Origin: an uncultured Clostridia bacterium
Lineage (GTDB): Bacteria; Bacillota; Clostridia; Christensenellales; Borkfalkiaceae
DNA length: 64,000 nucleotides
Direction: 5' to 3'
NCBI GenBank assembly: GCA_944330115.1
Contig: CALVIN010000003.1
Span: 62,001 to 126,000 of the forward strand
Shown here: piece by piece, positions 34,891 through 52,627 of the stretch
Layout of the letters: every line of letters starts with the position of its first letter
Position numbering within the stretch: position 1 is the first letter of the stretch
The notes under the pieces: generated by a model
The model's input: the letters and a program-made list of their open reading frames with translations, nothing else
The model's database searches: none
Told to the model about the DNA's origin: nothing
Made by a program: the position numbers and the translations under genes

Positions 34891-36486
34891 TTACATCATC
34901 GGTGCAAATATCTGCAATACGGCGGTGAGAAGGCGGCGGAAAAAGCCTACGTCGCGCTTTATATACTTTCGCTGCACGCTCTCGGGGAAGGCGGCGGCAA
35001 AGTCGCGCGCAAGTCCCTCCATCACGTCCTTATCGTCGGTATACAGCGCGTTTTCGTACTGCTGGAAGAAGGAGCGCAGATCGAAGTTGGCCGAGCCTAT
35101 CACCGCGCAGTTTTCGGTGAGCACCGACTTGGTGTGCACGAAGGTATCGGACATGGTGTATACCTTTACGCCGCTCTTTATGAGTTTATAGGCGTTGTCG
35201 AGCGAGATGAGGTACACATACTTTTTATCGGGTATGCCCGGCAGCACCATGCGCACGTCGACGCCCGAACGCGCCTTGCCCGCGAGCAGGTCGGTTATAG
35301 TTTCGTCGGGGACGAAATAGGGCGTCATTATATACAGCTTTTTATCGGCGTGAGATATCACGTTTGCATACATATCGCGCACCACGGGATCGCGGTATTC
35401 CAGCCCCGCGGCGTACGGCAGAAATACCGAGCCGTCGTCTTTTTCGCGCTGCACGCCCTTGAGCTGCAAGAAGGGCGAATAGTCGAAGGGCTTTTTGGTG
35501 ACAAACTCCCACTGGCGCAAAAACATCAGCGTGAAGCCCTGAACGGCGTCGCCGTCCACGCGCACGGCGTTGTCCTTCCAATAGCCGTACATGCGCTTTT
35601 CGTTTACGTATTCATCGGCTATGTTTATGCCGCCCGTATACGCCGTTTCGCCGTCCACCACCGTTATTTTGCGGTGGTCGCGGTAGTTCATGCCTATCTT
35701 ATAGAGCGGCACCAGCCTGTTGAAGGCATATATCTTTATGCCGGATGCGCGCACCTGCTTTTTTAACTTGTGCGAAAGCCTGCCGTTGGAGCCCATGTCG
35801 TCGTAAATGACGCGCACGTCCACCCCCGCGCGGGCGCGCTCTTCGAGCACGTCAAAGAGGCGGGTAAAGAGGGCGCCTTCGGCGATTATGAAGTATTCTA
35901 TGAATATAAAGCTGCGCGCCGAGGCACAGCGGACGAGCATGTCGTCGAAGGCCTGCGCGCCCGAGGGGAAGTAGCGCGCCGCCGTGTTTTTGTAGGGCAC
36001 ATAGCCCGTGACGTTCTTTAAATAAGCGCACGAGCGGGCGGTGACCTCGCTCATACCCTCCTCACCGCAGCCCTTTACCAGCCCCTGCGAGGCGGAGAGT
36101 ATGTCGCCGTACCTCTTGCGCGAGCCGCGGAAAAATATATTTTCGTCGGAGAGAAAGTAGATAAGAAAGCCCACGGGGAAGAGTATGAGCACTATCATTA
36201 TCCACACCGCCTTGGAGCGGCCGTTCTTCGACGAGCCGAGGATATAGAAGCAGGTGATCACGTCGAGCACTATCGACAATATGAGGTAGCTTTGAAAGGC
36301 CGCGGCAAACAGCAGGTGCAGCGCGGCGAGCAGGCAGAGCTGAAGTAAAGCCACAAAGAGTATGAGCATGGCCTTCAACTTGCCCATGCCCTTGCGCTCG
36401 GTCTTTATGCGGATGACGTCGCCGTCGGGCGACTTGAACATCAGCGGACTGCGCTGGCGCCTTAAAGTTTTGTTCTCAATCTTCAT
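34891..36486 (-). CDS. cls: Cardiolipin synthase
   Basis: 531 residues, phospholipase D superfamily. Two N-terminal membrane helices (about 38-60 and 66-85) plus a third near 95-115. HKD site one is RDHRKITVVDGETAYTGG, site two VHTKSVLTENCAVIGSANFD. It joins two phosphatidylglycerols (or uses another donor) to make cardiolipin. Its start overlaps the 179-residue membrane protein gene by 11 bases, so the four genes 38448-34891 form one operon. Confidence 0.93.
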   Translation of the reverse strand: MKIENKTLRRQRSPLMFKSPDGDVIRIKTERKGMGKLKAMLILFVALLQLCLLAALHLLFAAAFQSYLILSIVLDVITCFYILGSSKNGRSKAVWIMIVLILFPVGFLIYFLSDENIFFRGSRKRYGDILSASQGLVKGCGEEGMSEVTARSCAYLKNVTGYVPYKNTAARYFPSGAQAFDDMLVRCASARSFIFIEYFIIAEGALFTRLFDVLEERARAGVDVRVIYDDMGSNGRLSHKLKKQVRASGIKIYAFNRLVPLYKIGMNYRDHRKITVVDGETAYTGGINIADEYVNEKRMYGYWKDNAVRVDGDAVQGFTLMFLRQWEFVTKKPFDYSPFLQLKGVQREKDDGSVFLPYAAGLEYRDPVVRDMYANVISHADKKLYIMTPYFVPDETITDLLAGKARSGVDVRMVLPGIPDKKYVYLISLDNAYKLIKSGVKVYTMSDTFVHTKSVLTENCAVIGSANFDLRSFFQQYENALYTDDKDVMEGLARDFAAAFPESVQRKYIKRDVGFFRRLLTAVLQIFAPMM

Positions 36487-41218: not shown

Positions 41219-42583
41219 TCACTTCATAAACATTTTCAGCAGCTTATATTTCAGCTTGGTGTAGGGCTGATAGCGCACAGGCATGTCGAAGAAGGTGGCC
41301 TTATCGACGATCGACTTTTTATGCGTGAAGCAATCGAAGCCCTCTTTGCCGTGGTATGCGCCCATGCCGCTCGCGCCGAAGCCGCCAAAGCCCATCTGCG
41401 AGGTGGCGAGGTGAATTATAGTGTCGTTCACGCAGCCGCCGCCGAAGGCGCAGCGGTCTAAAATGCTGTTTGCAAACTTACTGTCCGACGAGAACACATA
41501 CAGCGCGAGCGGGTGGGGCTGCGCGTTTATTTCGGCTATCAGCTCCTCGGTATTTTCAAAGGTGAGTATGGGCATGACGGGGCCGAAGATCTCCTCCCCC
41601 ATCACCGCGTCGTCGCGGGTGACGTTGTCCATCACGGTGGGCTCTATGCGCAGAGTTTGCGCGTCGCTGCCGCCGCCGAACACCACCTTTTGGCCATCTA
41701 TGAGCGAAAGTATCCTGTCGAAGTGCTTTTTGTTTACTATCTTGCCGTAGGCGGCGTTTTCGAGCGGGTGCTCGCCGAACTGCAGCACGATCTCCTTTTT
41801 TACCGCCTCGATAAACTTCTCCTTTACCGAGGAATGCACGACAACATAGTCGGGCGCGACGCACGTCTGGCCGCAATTTAAGTATTTGCCGAACACTATG
41901 CGCCTTGCGGCGAGCCGTATGTTGGCCGACTTGCCCACTATGCAGGGGCTCTTGCCGCCGAGCTCAAGCGTTACGGGCGTAAGCCTTTCGGCGGCGTGCC
42001 GCATCACCTCTTTGCCGACCGCCACGCTGCCCGTGAAGAAAATTTTATCGAAGGGCATATCGAGCAGGGCGGAATTTTCTTTTCTGCCGCCCAAAACTGT
42101 GGTGGCGAGCTCGGGCGGGAAGGCCTCCCTTATCACCTCGGCGACTATGGCGCTGGTGGCGGGGGAATATGCCGAGGGCTTTACTATCACCGTGTTGCCG
42201 GCGGCTATCGCGTCGATGAGCGGCTCCATGGAGAGCATGAAGGGGTAGTTCCACGGGCTCATGACGAGCACGCAGCCGTAGGGCGACTTTTTTACGTAGC
42301 TGGTTGCGGGATACTGCGCGAGCGGCGTGGGAACGACGGTATTGCGCGCCCAGCGGCGGGTACGCTTTATCATGTATGAGAGCTCGGAGAGCGTCATGCC
42401 CACTTCGCACATATAGCTTTCGAACCCGCCCTTGCCGAGATCGGCCTTTAAGGCCTCGTTTATATCCTTTTCGCGCGCAAGTATAACATCTTTTAATTTT
42501 TTGAGCGCCGCCACCCTCGCTTTGGCGGGAAGTGTTGCGCCCGTGGCAAAATATTCACGCTGTTTTTCAAGTAATTCTATCAT
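41219..42583 (-). CDS. Aldehyde dehydrogenase (ALDH3-like)
   Basis: 454 residues, a length typical of the class 3 fatty-aldehyde group. Motifs: VLVMSPWNYPFMLSMEPL, FTGSVAVGKEVM, catalytic Glu in TLELGGKSPCIVG and catalytic Cys in NCGQTCVAPDYV. It oxidises aldehydes with NAD(P)+. The gene directly upstream is a lysoplasmalogenase-like/alcohol dehydrogenase fusion, so a long-chain aldehyde is a plausible substrate. ATG 42583 follows GAGGTAT. Confidence 0.93.
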   Translation of the reverse strand: MIELLEKQREYFATGATLPAKARVAALKKLKDVILAREKDINEALKADLGKGGFESYMCEVGMTLSELSYMIKRTRRWARNTVVPTPLAQYPATSYVKKSPYGCVLVMSPWNYPFMLSMEPLIDAIAAGNTVIVKPSAYSPATSAIVAEVIREAFPPELATTVLGGRKENSALLDMPFDKIFFTGSVAVGKEVMRHAAERLTPVTLELGGKSPCIVGKSANIRLAARRIVFGKYLNCGQTCVAPDYVVVHSSVKEKFIEAVKKEIVLQFGEHPLENAAYGKIVNKKHFDRILSLIDGQKVVFGGGSDAQTLRIEPTVMDNVTRDDAVMGEEIFGPVMPILTFENTEELIAEINAQPHPLALYVFSSDSKFANSILDRCAFGGGCVNDTIIHLATSQMGFGGFGASGMGAYHGKEGFDCFTHKKSIVDKATFFDMPVRYQPYTKLKYKLLKMFMK

Positions 42584-42635: not shown

Positions 42636-42760
42636 ATTTAATTAAAAATTAAATTATTTTTTATTTTTGCGGAATTTTTTTGATTATTTTTATTTTGATA
42701 AAAATTAAATTAAAAATTATTTTTTATTTATTTTTAAATTATTTTTTATTTGGTAATAAA
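42636..42760. other. AT-only tract
   Basis: Over 100 bp of TTAAATTATTTTTTATTT-type sequence that reaches into the last codons of the fusion gene (which end NNLKINKK). Confidence 0.6.
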
Positions 42761-44654
42761 TTTTTTCGAGCGCGCGGGCGTTCATAAGCTTGGGCACGGG
42801 ATAGAGGGGATTGGCCTCTTTATCGGCGTGGCGGGCGAGCTCGGGAATGTCGCCCTCCTCCACCTCCAACTTTTCGGGTATGTTCATCGAGGCGTTGAGT
42901 TCGCGCACGAAGGTTATAAATGCCCCGGCAGCCTCCTTGTCGCTCAGAACGACGTCGGCGACGCCGCTCTCGCGGGCGAGGCGGGCCAGCCTCTTTTGGC
43001 AGGTGACGCCGTAATCTTCGAGCACGTATGGCAGTATCACGGCGTTCGCAAGGCCGTGGGGGGTGTTATACTTGCCGCCGAGAGAATGCGCCACGGCGTG
43101 CACATACCCCACATACGATATGGTGAACGCCAGCCCCGCGCAGTAGGCGGCGTACTGCATGCGCCTGCGCGCATACTTATTTTTGCCGTCGGTATAGGCT
43201 GTATACAGGTTTGCGCGTATTATTCTAACGGCCTCCACCGCCATTTTGCGCGTAAGACGGGTGGTAGAGCCGCCTATGTATGCCTCCACCGCGTGCGTGA
43301 GCGCGTCCATGCCCGTTGTGGAAGTTACGTTTGCAGGCAGGCCTACCGTCATTTCGGGATCGAGTATGGCATAGTGCGGCGCGAGGCAGAATGAGATAAT
43401 AGTGAACTTGTCGCGCGTTTTATCGTCGACTATGACGGCGGCGATGGTTGTTTCGCTGCCCGTGCCCGCCGTGGTGGGTACGGCTATAAAGAGGGGCAGC
43501 TTGCCGAATACGCGGAGCACGCCGCGCATCTGCTGCAGCGTGCGCTTGGGCTTGATTATAAGCGCGCCCGCGCCCTTTGCGCAGTCCATGGCGCTGCCGC
43601 CGCCCACGGCTATCATACTGTCGCACCCGCGCTCTTTAAACAGGCGCGCAGCCTCCTCGCAGTTGGCCGTGGTGGGGTTGGCGACGGTATCGGAATACAC
43701 GCAGCTCTCTATTCCGCGCTCTTCAAGAGCGGCTATTATGGGCGCGCACAGGCCGAGTTTGTATATATTTGCGTCGGTGACGATGAGCACGCGCTTTTTA
43801 TTTTTGCTAACTAAAAGTTCGGCCGCCTCGGCGCTGCCCGAGAGGGGCTTGGGCTGACGGTAGGGAAGAAGGGGTATCGCCACCTTGAAGCAAAACTGAA
43901 AGGCGCGGCAAAACAGCCTTTTAAACACGTTCATCTGCGGCTTTAAGCGCCTGCCGCCGTTCATCGAGGCGAACAGCCCGAAGAATATCAGAAAGAACTG
44001 GGCGAGGTAGTATGTGGATATGTTCAGCCTGCAATACAGCGTGCATTGACCCGAATGGCCGCTGCGTATGGTGAGAAACACGTCGGATACGGCAAAGAGC
44101 AGCGCGCCTGAAAATACCGATATGCGCGTCTTTGCATCGAGAGTGCCGTCGAAGGCCACTCCCATCGCCCTGCCGAACATTATGCAGATTATGAGTATGT
44201 ACAGCACCACCGCGGGGATGTAGGAGGCCTGCACCGTGTAGCGGGGCGTTATGAACACGGCCAGCCATATCACGGCGAACACCGCCACGACGAGCGCGGG
44301 CAGCACCGTGCGCCAGCCCACGGAATTTACCGACTGAAAGGCGGCGATATACAGCACGTTGCCGAGCGCGAAGAACGCCACGCCGACGATAAGGTTGCGC
44401 TCTATGGCGATGTCGCCTATGCAGCAACACACCGCCGCTGCGAGCACGAGGTATTTTACCGCGGGAAAGCCGCCGTGCGCGCGCAGGCGCGCGAAGAGCA
44501 AAAAGCCGAGTGCGAATAAAACGAATACCGCGCTTGCCGCACCTTTGTATGCGAGCGACTGCGTGAGCATGTACTCGGCCGCAAATACGGCGAGCAATGC
44601 AAGGAAAATTACGCCTGCAATTGCAAGGGGCAGGCATCTGAGTTTTGCTTTCAA
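42717..44654 (-). CDS. Fusion of a YhhN/TMEM86 lysoplasmalogenase-like domain with an iron-type alcohol dehydrogenase
   Basis: 645 residues from TTG at 44654, chosen because GGAGG (44665-44669) stands upstream; the longer frame to 44789 is R1 repeat. Residues 1-230: about eight membrane helices with YhhN marks (CCIGDIAIE, ALGNVLYIAAF, GALLFAVSDVFL). Residues 250-645: group III alcohol dehydrogenase with AVGGGSAMDCAKG, PTTAGTGSETT, TTGMDALTHAVEAY and the metal-binding His run VHAVAHSLGGKYNTPHG. YhhN/TMEM86 proteins cleave the vinyl ether of lysoplasmalogen to a fatty aldehyde; the fused enzyme could reduce it at once. Confidence 0.85.
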   Translation of the reverse strand: MKAKLRCLPLAIAGVIFLALLAVFAAEYMLTQSLAYKGAASAVFVLFALGFLLFARLRAHGGFPAVKYLVLAAAVCCCIGDIAIERNLIVGVAFFALGNVLYIAAFQSVNSVGWRTVLPALVVAVFAVIWLAVFITPRYTVQASYIPAVVLYILIICIMFGRAMGVAFDGTLDAKTRISVFSGALLFAVSDVFLTIRSGHSGQCTLYCRLNISTYYLAQFFLIFFGLFASMNGGRRLKPQMNVFKRLFCRAFQFCFKVAIPLLPYRQPKPLSGSAEAAELLVSKNKKRVLIVTDANIYKLGLCAPIIAALEERGIESCVYSDTVANPTTANCEEAARLFKERGCDSMIAVGGGSAMDCAKGAGALIIKPKRTLQQMRGVLRVFGKLPLFIAVPTTAGTGSETTIAAVIVDDKTRDKFTIISFCLAPHYAILDPEMTVGLPANVTSTTGMDALTHAVEAYIGGSTTRLTRKMAVEAVRIIRANLYTAYTDGKNKYARRRMQYAAYCAGLAFTISYVGYVHAVAHSLGGKYNTPHGLANAVILPYVLEDYGVTCQKRLARLARESGVADVVLSDKEAAGAFITFVRELNASMNIPEKLEVEEGDIPELARHADKEANPLYPVPKLMNARALEKIYYQIKNNLKINKK

Positions 44655-44678
44655 CTTTTTATATCCTCCAAGAAATAG

Positions 44679-44902: not shown

Positions 44903-45703
44903 TCACCTTCCCTTCGAGCGGGAGAGGGCGCGCACAATAAATGATATTGCAAGCAGCACGAGCGATATCACCAAAAATATGCAGAAGAAAAAGAGCATAA
45001 ACGCACCCGCCGCCGCAACGCCGCCCGTGAACGCCGAGAGCGCCGCGGGACTTACGAAAAACAGGATAATGTCGGCGATGAGGAATATCAGCACATATGC
45101 GGCGAGCCCCGAGAGGGCGCCCTTTATATCCTCGCGGCTGAGCGTCATGTGGGTGGCTATAAAGCTGCCGATAAGCAAAAACACCCACCACTGCCAGCTG
45201 CCTATATACGAGAACATCAACGCAAAAGACCGCCACATATGGCCGAACGAACCGCCTAAATCGCCGATGAAATCTATCTGCGATATCTCCGCGGAAACGC
45301 CGGCGAACAGTTCGGGCAGCAGCAGATACAAAAGGCCCGCGAGTATGAGCGCGCCGACGAGCACGGGCGCTATGCCTATGAACAGGTTGCCCACGCGCTG
45401 ATAGATGCTGCGCGGGTTGTATGCGTGGCGCACATAGCCGAGCACGCCGTCGGACGAGTTGAGCTGAAAGAACTTTATTTCGAGTATCTTATGCCCGAAT
45501 ATCAGGCAGAACAGCGCGTGCGAGGCCTCGTGCACGGGAGTGCCGATAAAGCCCGTTATATAGCACACCGCGCGCCCGTGCGTGGCGAGGTTGCGGTAGA
45601 ACGCGCCGTTGCACAGCGCTATCACGAAGCCGAACAGAAATATAAAGCCGAGCGTGAACAGCATCTGCAATAAAAAACTTAAAATAAAAGTGCCGAAGTC
45701 CAT
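44903..45703 (-). CDS. Membrane protein with an HExxH motif (M50-like)
   Basis: 266 residues from ATG 45703. Six to seven membrane helices. GTPVHEASHALFCLIFGHKI carries an HExxH zinc site at the start of a helix, as in site-2-type peptidases, but I see no typical NxxPxxxLDG second motif; a non-peptidase relative is possible. The open frame upstream of 45703 is antisense-like reading of the neighbouring dehydrogenase and is discarded. Its own promoter lies at 45740-45768. Confidence 0.75.
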   Translation of the reverse strand: MDFGTFILSFLLQMLFTLGFIFLFGFVIALCNGAFYRNLATHGRAVCYITGFIGTPVHEASHALFCLIFGHKILEIKFFQLNSSDGVLGYVRHAYNPRSIYQRVGNLFIGIAPVLVGALILAGLLYLLLPELFAGVSAEISQIDFIGDLGGSFGHMWRSFALMFSYIGSWQWWVFLLIGSFIATHMTLSREDIKGALSGLAAYVLIFLIADIILFFVSPAALSAFTGGVAAAGAFMLFFFCIFLVISLVLLAISFIVRALSRSKGR

Positions 45704-48506: not shown

Positions 48507-49469
48507 ATGCCCGATATATCATTGATTGGCAATGCCATTATAGATGTCATTGCAAAACCCATAGATAGAAATATTTTTAAAGATGAATCGTCGTCAGTTG
48601 ATTCTATTAAACTTACTTATGGCGGCGATGCTTTAAATGAATGCGTAATTCTATCGCGCTTTGGAAAACAAACTGAGCTTATTTCAAAAGTCGGCGGTGA
48701 TGAAGCTGGCTCAAAAATACTTGAGTTTTTAGATAAAAATAAAATAATAACTTCTAAAATAATCATAGATTCGAACGTTGAAACATCGATCAACCTCGTA
48801 TTAGTAGATAGCTGCGGAGAACGATTTTTTATTTCTAACCCATCAAGCAGCCAACGGCAACTTTCCAAAGACGATATTATTTGCCAACTTGAATCCACTG
48901 GGGAAATCATCAGTTTTGCAAGCATGTTCATCTCTCCACTTCTTGATATACCGGCAATGACCGAACTCTTCAAAACTATTAAAACAGATCACAAAAAAAT
49001 TCTTTCTGTCGACTTGGTTCGTGCAAAAAATGGATTGACACTACGCAATCTCGATGGACTTCTTCCTTATGTAGATTTTATTATGCCGAATGAAGAAGAA
49101 ATTTCAGCACTTACCGGCACTAACGATATTTGCAAAAATGCAAATGCTCTTCTTGACGCTGGCTGCAGTTGCGTCATTATAAAACGCGGAAAAAACGGAT
49201 GCTATATAAAATCCAAATCATTGGAATGTCACATTCCGGCTTATCCTGTGAAAAACTGCATAGATACTACCGGTGCCGGAGATAGTTTTGCTGCCGGTTT
49301 CCTTTGGGCGCTCTCTGAACATTGGACAATTCCAGATTGCGGTTGCTTCGGCACCGCCGTTGCCTCTTGTTCAATAGAACACATGGGAGCAACTGATGGT
49401 GTTCACTCTATTGATGAAGCATTGTCGCGATTTGATATCGTTAAAAATATGATGCTACATAAAAGATAG
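48507..49469 (+). CDS. PfkB-family carbohydrate kinase
   Basis: 320 residues. First signature GGDALNECVILSRFGKQTELISKVGGDEAG is present in register, second signature DTTGAGDSFAAGFLWAL carries the catalytic Asp and anion hole. Relatives phosphorylate fructose, ribose or similar sugars. It is AT-rich, has its own consensus promoter and faces the ROK gene of the island. Substrate cannot be told. Confidence 0.92.
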   Translation: MPDISLIGNAIIDVIAKPIDRNIFKDESSSVDSIKLTYGGDALNECVILSRFGKQTELISKVGGDEAGSKILEFLDKNKIITSKIIIDSNVETSINLVLVDSCGERFFISNPSSSQRQLSKDDIICQLESTGEIISFASMFISPLLDIPAMTELFKTIKTDHKKILSVDLVRAKNGLTLRNLDGLLPYVDFIMPNEEEISALTGTNDICKNANALLDAGCSCVIIKRGKNGCYIKSKSLECHIPAYPVKNCIDTTGAGDSFAAGFLWALSEHWTIPDCGCFGTAVASCSIEHMGATDGVHSIDEALSRFDIVKNMMLHKR

Positions 49470-51298: not shown

Positions 51299-52597
51299 TT
51301 ACTTTGAGACTATCCATTCAGCTGTTTTTTTAGGATCACTCTCACTTATAGCAATATCATCAAGTCCCGCTTCGTGAGCAATAGTCTTTGTCGTTAAAAT
51401 ATAGGCATTGGGATGATTTCTCAATAAGGTAGCCGGCAACCCTGCTGTCATCGGACCGTTGAACATTCTTTTCAATATATTTGTTTTTTGTATATCAAAT
51501 ACAAGAATCAATAAAACGGATGACGACATTGCTACGCCAAGCCCTATTGTTATTATAGATTTTGACGGTTGATTGGGATCAATATATTTTTTACTATGCT
51601 CGCCGACCTCAACTATGCGCGGACCGTCATCTATTATTTCATCAATATCTGTATATGTGCCAACTTCATATGCAAGCACTTCGCCAACTGGTGAAATAGA
51701 TACAGCATGAACGCAAGGCGGAAACTCACGCAATAATTTTTGCATTTTTTGTAGAGGATCACTGTCAGTATATATACCGCTTAGCAAATGTAGCTGACTT
51801 TTTAATGGCGCCTTGTTCATCTCTCTCAGTGGCTCTATAAGTTTTTCATTGATATGTTTTGTGCGACTCGTTTCATGTTCTGACCATACTCCAAATGTTT
51901 CCGTATCTGAAAGAACAGTAGCCTCACCAAACGGACACCCGTCAAACTCATTAACAATGCGTCTCATCGCTCTAAAAATTGCCGAGGCACTTCGCCCTGT
52001 AGGAAGGATAACAGAAGATTCAGGATTCTTTTGAGCCATACTGAAATAAACACGCGCAGCACATTCCGCAGCGGCGCGGTCAGTATCGAATGCTAAAAGA
52101 CCTTTTGTCCAAACTTCATTTTTTATCCCGCGCTCAACCACCTTTTCATTGCTAGAGGTAATAGCAGGCTCAGCAAACTCTTTAGAAATACTATCAAGCG
52201 ATTTAACATCTTCAACCAGTTTTTCCAGCGTGTTATCACGCGTATCCAACCAGTCCAGCCACTGTGTAGATGTTAGAAAATAACTTAAATTATTTGGTTC
52301 TACTCGCTCTATGCGTAACCAGAATACAGGTTTTTTATATTTGTCAGCCAAAGATAATTCTCTTTTAACTTGCCGACTTGAATCCGCCTGCGCACAAAAC
52401 AACAATACAAGTGCCTTACAGTCTTTAATAGCATCATTTATAGCCTCATCCCACTGCTGTCCGGCTCGAATATCACGAGGCGCATACCATGTTTTTACAC
52501 CATTTTTTTCTAAATATTTAGAAAGATGCGCTACTAATTCTATTTTGCTAGAATGATAACTAATGAAAATACTTTTGTTTTTAAGTTCAGCATCCAT
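51299..52597 (-). CDS. TIR domain fused to a glucosamine-6-phosphate deaminase-like (NagB) domain
   Basis: 432 residues from ATG 52597 (a GTG at 52600 adds one). Residues 9-120 are a TIR domain: KSIFISYHSSKIELVAHLSK, TWYAPRDIRAGQQWDEAI, VLLFCAQADSSRQVKREL with a Glu at the NADase position. Residues 160-430 are NagB-like: LPTGRSASAIFRAM, LSDTETFGVWSEHETSRTKH, GPMTAGLPATLLRNHP. The NagB catalytic GxGxxGH appears as ISPVGE, so the key His seems lost; the domain may bind a sugar phosphate without turning it over. It heads a group with HAD and ROK genes. A TIR sensor/effector is inferred. Confidence 0.88.
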   Translation of the reverse strand: MDAELKNKSIFISYHSSKIELVAHLSKYLEKNGVKTWYAPRDIRAGQQWDEAINDAIKDCKALVLLFCAQADSSRQVKRELSLADKYKKPVFWLRIERVEPNNLSYFLTSTQWLDWLDTRDNTLEKLVEDVKSLDSISKEFAEPAITSSNEKVVERGIKNEVWTKGLLAFDTDRAAAECAARVYFSMAQKNPESSVILPTGRSASAIFRAMRRIVNEFDGCPFGEATVLSDTETFGVWSEHETSRTKHINEKLIEPLREMNKAPLKSQLHLLSGIYTDSDPLQKMQKLLREFPPCVHAVSISPVGEVLAYEVGTYTDIDEIIDDGPRIVEVGEHSKKYIDPNQPSKSIITIGLGVAMSSSVLLILVFDIQKTNILKRMFNGPMTAGLPATLLRNHPNAYILTTKTIAHEAGLDDIAISESDPKKTAEWIVSK

Positions 52598-52627
52598 CAC
52601 TAAAAAATCCCCTGCTGTAATATAATA

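Follow-up and report, generated by a model that had tools for sequence, protein, structure and literature searches.

Known Systems for the Formation and Disposal of Fatty Aldehydes

Plasmalogen breakdown in anaerobic bacteria is largely an open question; the bacterial genes for plasmalogen synthesis, plsA and plsR, were reportedly identified in 2021. In animals, fatty aldehyde derived from plasmalogens is oxidised by FALDH, and the mammalian fatty alcohol:NAD+ oxidoreductase (FALDH/ALDH3A2 together with a fatty alcohol dehydrogenase) is a membrane-associated system that acts on fatty aldehydes, including those of plasmalogen origin. Within a single chain, an aldehyde dehydrogenase (ALDH) is joined to an iron-type alcohol dehydrogenase (Fe-ADH) in AdhE and BdhE, which are thought to channel the reactive aldehyde (PMC12454647). 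The characterised lysoplasmalogenases of the YhhN/TMEM86 family, i.e., human TMEM86A/B, L. pneumophila YhhN and M. tuberculosis Rv1401, are stand-alone proteins with a PF07947 domain and eight transmembrane (TM) helices. Their candidate catalytic set comprises eight residues (K, G, D, H, G, S, D, Y), and alanine changes at these residues in human TMEM86A/B nearly all lower activity, most of them to <10% (PMC11994398). The glycine equivalent to G80 of the protein described below tolerates alanine, and alanine at the conserved His lowers activity, but outside the <10% group (PMC11994398).

Here, we compare these systems with a locus in a window of 64,000 nucleotides (the whole stretch of DNA analysed, to which all coordinates refer) from an uncultured Clostridia bacterium. 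One gene joins a YhhN domain to an Fe-ADH, a combination for which no description was found in open-licence PMC text, and which is a new domain architecture made from known enzymes. We consider it moderately probable, judging from the sequences, that the product is a membrane-embedded lysoplasmalogenase joined to an enzyme that disposes of its aldehyde product. The architecture would thereby provide a candidate enzyme set for plasmalogen breakdown: the fusion ties YhhN to aldehyde-consuming partners, and the genes can be directly expressed and assayed.

The Fusion Gene and Its Neighbors

The fusion gene (42717..44654, minus strand) encodes 645 aa. Direct reading of the sequence gives a TTG start at 44654, preceded by 10 bases by a GGAGG ribosome-binding site (44665..44669, minus strand), and a stop codon that ends at 42717. 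Membership of the YhhN/TMEM86 family was judged by a PF07947 match above the curated Pfam cut-off, and residues 50-223 score 73.8 bits against a cut-off of 25.6 (E 2e-20). The Fe-ADH models PF00465/PF25137 match residues 275-433 (144 bits) and 445-633 (155 bits), likewise above cut-off. The order of domains is an eight-TM YhhN domain, a basic amphipathic helix and the Fe-ADH. An earlier sequence-only reading, which had placed a YhhN-like domain and an iron-type alcohol dehydrogenase in one chain at 42717-44654, is therefore correct in its coordinates and in both domains. A frameshift or assembly artefact is ruled out by the one open frame and by the occurrence of the in-frame fusion in 28 genomes.

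The next gene (41219..42583, minus strand) lies 133 bases downstream on the same strand and encodes an ALDH (Aldedh PF00171, 328 bits, E 1e-97). It had been read as ALDH3-like, and this holds: among solved structures, the highest-ranking matches belong to the ALDH3 class, human FALDH (4qgk, E 3e-117) being second, and the candidate catalytic Cys and Glu (C241 and E207) are conserved, as expected of class 3. The scores against FALDH (395 bits) and ALDH3A1 (388 bits) are nearly equal, and long-chain specificity is not readable from them. Throughout the genus, the ALDH adjoins or is fused to the ADH wherever the sequence is long enough, whereas in the family f28 it follows the ADH in only one of four fusion genomes.

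Like the mammalian oxidoreductase, the locus pairs an ADH with an ALDH3 enzyme, but the ADH is iron-type and genetically joined to a candidate aldehyde-generating hydrolase. AdhE and BdhE likewise join an ALDH to an Fe-ADH. In those enzymes, however, the ALDH is N-terminal to the Fe-ADH in one chain, an arrangement that the fusion family does not share: the order is YhhN-ADH-ALDH in eight triple fusions among its relatives, and in the window the ALDH has a gene of its own. Moreover, the ALDH here belongs to the ALDH3/FALDH class, and a candidate membrane lipid hydrolase leads the chain. The family thus represents another way of joining Fe-ADH to ALDH, in the order opposite to AdhE and BdhE.

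Upstream of the fusion, the product of a gene at 44903-45700 (minus strand) is a membrane protein that weakly resembles zincin peptidases (DUF3267, below cut-off), and the position of this gene is conserved in several relatives. A cardiolipin-synthase-like PLD protein is encoded at 34891..36486 (minus strand; TIGR04265 275.5 bits, just below the cut-off of 290); by synteny, such a gene also neighbors the locus in G029, G002 and G069, where a contig end cuts it in the last.

Topology and Candidate Active Site of the YhhN Domain

The YhhN domain occupies residues 1-231 (43962..44654, minus strand). Hydropathy and AlphaFold2 (pLDDT about 60-87 by block for this domain) agree on eight predicted TM helices, and hydropathy analysis places both termini in the cytoplasm, on the basis of the positive-inside count and of a highly basic stretch that follows the final TM helix. 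With the basic linker behind the TM helices, the ADH would thus lie on the cytoplasmic side, together with the NAD pool. For the fusion as a whole, AlphaFold2 provides a model of only moderate quality (pLDDT 65, pTM 0.46, alignment of 7 sequences), in which the junction between the domains and some of the ADH are poorly predicted, and domain packing is for this reason left out of our claims.

In an alignment of 28 fused and 28 other YhhN domains, seven of the eight proposed catalytic positions are invariant among all 28 fused domains. These are the proposed catalytic Lys K37 (TMEM86A K43; 44544..44546; role per PMC11994398), G80-D81 (TMEM86A G81-D82; 44412..44417), G183 (TMEM86A G182; 44106..44108), S190-D191 (TMEM86A S189-D190; 44082..44087) and Y215 (TMEM86A Y213; 44010..44012), all on the minus strand. 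Only 16 of 232 columns are invariant, and the chance of finding seven of the eight positions among them is about 1e-8 (hypergeometric P). The eighth position departs from the family: the conserved His (TMEM86A H104), present in 26/28 fused domains, is Asn in the window protein (N99; 44358..44360, minus strand) and in its close relative in G116. The sequence-only reading had named missing YhhN active-site residues as one of two points that would speak against it; with seven of the eight in place and a departure at the His position alone, the reading is not refuted on this point. The window domain accordingly shares PF07947, eight TM helices and seven of eight residues with the characterised lysoplasmalogenases, and differs from them in this His-to-Asn change and in being joined to an Fe-ADH, in some relatives also to an ALDH.

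The same alignment bears on the possibility that the YhhN part is an enzymatically inactive membrane anchor for a fatty-aldehyde or fatty-alcohol dehydrogenase. The Asn at the His position would be compatible with such a role, but a mere anchor has no need to keep K, G-D, G, S-D and Y invariant in 28/28 domains whose mean pairwise identity is 40%, and we regard this explanation as unlikely; evidence on its two sides from the linker and the phylogeny is given below.

Apart from the fused domains, a second, divergent YhhN paralogue occurs in the genus, in which several of the proposed catalytic residues are lost. In L203/L040 (G003:C9, 2637-4157, plus strand) and L204 (G023:C19), it is fused to or lies near a Y_phosphatase3 protein (PF13350).

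The Linker Helix and the Fe-ADH Domain

Between the two domains, residues 241-258 (43881..43934, minus strand) form a basic amphipathic helix with a hydrophobic moment of 0.60. In the alignment, the start codon of unfused ADH relatives falls at M241, and the conserved motif MNIFKRxYCRxYQ...LPYRxPK stands at the N-terminus of these unfused ADHs, too. Since the motif is kept there, the ADH subfamily may sit on the membrane unaided. That unfused relatives already have such a helix, and manage without YhhN, is a further argument for those who would see the YhhN part as an anchor.

The Fe-ADH domain (residues 275-633; 42756..43832, minus strand) can be assigned to the iron-containing (type III) ADHs by its PF00465/PF25137 matches, by D450, H454, H519 and H533, which we take to be the metal ligands by comparison with FucO, and by a GGGS nucleotide-binding motif (351-354). 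All four ligands and G351-S354 are invariant in a seven-sequence alignment. An ordinary AdhE, above the equivalog cut-off, is also encoded in the genome, so that the ADH of the fusion is not needed for ethanol fermentation and a fermentative role is disfavored.

A further alternative is that the ADH-ALDH pair handles some other aldehyde, e.g., from short-chain fermentation or lipid peroxidation, and that YhhN now acts on a different lipid, of the vinyl-ether or a related type. Such a role could explain why the ADH subfamily is found in 132/297 genomes of the order, often without ALDH, YhhN or plsA nearby, and it would be in line with the named Fe-ADH models of NCBIfam (lactaldehyde reductase, ErcA), which match only far below their cut-offs. 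Nevertheless, we consider it quite improbable: we saw no consistent linkage of the pair to any other gene for aldehyde production, the partner ALDH is ALDH3/FALDH-like, and a substrate in the membrane would agree with the conservation of the amphipathic helix. One member of the same ADH subfamily, L178 (G251:C2, 4312-7059, minus strand), follows a partial PfkB kinase match in frame, which may reflect an overlong frame.

Distribution and Evolution of the Fusion

The closest relatives of the fusion protein are encoded in MAGs of Candidatus Coproplasma (gut Clostridia) and of uncultured Clostridia. A search for the fusion in other genomes, which had been proposed together with the initial assignment, recovered it in 27 besides the window genome. 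The resulting 28 comprise 22/93 genomes of the genus (complete in 21 and truncated at a contig end in G013), two of a sister genus (G270, G302) and four of the family f28 (G364, G241, G252, G229); no fusion was found outside the order in samples of about 390 genomes of the class and about 400 of the phylum. In 21 more genomes of the genus, the ADH occurs without the fusion; in G022, the sequence is cut where the YhhN part would lie.

Eight genomes from two genera encode YhhN, ADH and ALDH as a single chain, with frames that span about 1,055 to 1,174 aa (G009, G076, G081, G093, G098, G103, G270, G302), with the contig ending inside the ALDH in G093 and G098. The recurrence of the fusion, together with the presence of the ALDH in the same chain in these eight genomes, argues that the three activities belong together. 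In other genera of f28, the link also exists without fusion: an unfused YhhN gene follows ADH-ALDH in G325 and G314 and ADH in G373 and G295, and lies about 3 kb from the ADH in G274. Such proximity in five genomes, where 0.34 would be expected by chance, implies a functional rather than a mechanical link between YhhN and ADH, which speaks against an inactive anchor.

On the ADH tree, the fused state requires 10 changes, at least 7 of them on well-supported branches, and the length of the junction between the domains differs among clades. Both observations indicate that fusion and loss occurred repeatedly. Repeated gain and loss of the YhhN domain would also be compatible with a mere anchor. 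An unfused ancestor is suggested by distant unfused ADHs, whose first residue is the Met that corresponds to M241. Several close relatives have ADH-ALDH (ADH 68-76% identical) without YhhN in the gene, and no YhhN was seen anywhere in four such genomes (G001, G028, G031, G035). Evidently, ADH-ALDH has some use of its own in these relatives, and either it has other sources of aldehyde or the YhhN part is dispensable. The neighbors of plasmid-borne relatives provided no useful partner gene.

In another family of the order, L191 (G310:C17, 1821-4751, plus strand) encodes a class 3 lipase (PF01764, E 6e-8) and, C-terminal to it, YhhN (E 1e-16) in a single frame of 977 aa, which possibly couples a deacylation step with a lysoplasmalogenase. 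The Lipase_3 match in L191 is real, whereas an apparent YhhN-lipase fusion in L190 proved to be an artefact of an overlong open frame.

Probable Plasmalogen Synthesis and the Possible Origin of the Substrate

Candidate plasmalogen synthase genes, whose presence the sequence-only reading had suggested checking, do occur in the window genome. Two BcrAD_BadFG stretches and DUF2229 are combined in an ORF of 990 aa, which precedes a 435-aa HgdD-like ORF, whose sole match is weak (HGD-D, E 0.17). This agrees with the layout expected of PlsA, in which two activation domains and a reductase domain are combined, and of PlsR as the gene behind it. The second point named against the sequence-only reading, an organism that lacks plasmalogens, is thus not borne out at the level of gene content. 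We liken this plsA-plsR-like operon by its arrangement and total length to plsA-plsR of Clostridium perfringens, a two-gene arrangement of about 4.2 kb (PMC12838417). PF09989 is present in 87/93 genomes of the genus. PlsA-PlsR represents the biosynthetic side, and the window fusion would belong to breakdown.

These genes matter for the question whether the enzyme set serves the turnover of the cell's own plasmalogens, or rather scavenges or detoxifies lysoplasmalogens in the gut that derive from the host, the diet or neighboring cells. M. tuberculosis offers a precedent for the latter, since it has an active YhhN although it lacks plasmalogen synthesis, and uses it for protection against host lysolipids (PMC9052158). 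Furthermore, no match to plsA was found in the four f28 fusion genomes, and several related MAGs bear names given to chicken-gut species. However, the plsA-plsR-like genes in the window genome and in nearly the whole genus make an endogenous substrate likely to be available, and no uptake genes were identified; scavenging is, in our judgment, an improbable main role.

Co-occurrence with plsA failed as order-wide support: in 297 genomes of the order, both YhhN and the ADH subfamily show an anticorrelation with plsA, in a comparison that ignores kinship. This anticorrelation is at odds with YhhN mainly turning over endogenous plasmalogens. Adjacency of the ALDH appeared to correlate with plsA (13/17 vs. 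2/24 before allowing for relatedness), a link that was not upheld in a relatedness-aware test with too few independent pairs.

A Proposed Route for Aldehyde Disposal

What we observe directly is how the domains are arranged, that the proposed catalytic residues are largely retained, that the fusion recurs and that the genes for the three activities are linked. On this basis, the favored reading, a lysoplasmalogenase coupled to aldehyde disposal, can be spelled out. A phospholipase would take off the sn-2 acyl chain of a plasmalogen, and the resulting lysoplasmalogen, the presumed substrate of the YhhN domain, would be cleaved in the membrane to release a fatty aldehyde. The aldehyde may stay at the inner membrane face, where the amphipathic helix would hold the Fe-ADH domain and thereby permit channeling. 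Working in the reductive direction, the Fe-ADH would convert the fatty aldehyde to fatty alcohol with NADH, and the ALDH3-type partner (a separate gene here, part of the same chain in eight relatives) would oxidise it to fatty acid with NAD+. The earlier proposal that the aldehyde is captured as alcohol or acid gains support from the recurring fusion and the triple fusions.

With one enzyme for reduction and one for oxidation at hand, a dismutation suggests itself: 2 RCHO -> RCH2OH + RCOOH, with no net demand for NAD and little free reactive aldehyde. Such a reaction would suit an anaerobe, and either enzyme could also work alone. More tentatively, the three activities might constitute a one-polypeptide plasmalogen-disposal machine (split in two in the window) that combines hydrolysis and dismutation around an internally recycled pool of NAD. 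If true, anaerobes could turn over an ether lipid at no cost in reductant and with no release of reactive aldehyde.

Other Features of the Window

Elsewhere in the window, a gene at 51299-52600 (minus strand) encodes a TIR domain (PF13676, E 5e-19) and a C-terminal part that by eye resembles glucosamine-6-phosphate isomerase. The stretch around it is low in G+C (0.35-0.39), and genes of sugar-kinase type lie nearby, i.e., a PfkB match at 48507-49469 (plus strand) and another whose product reads as ROK-like.
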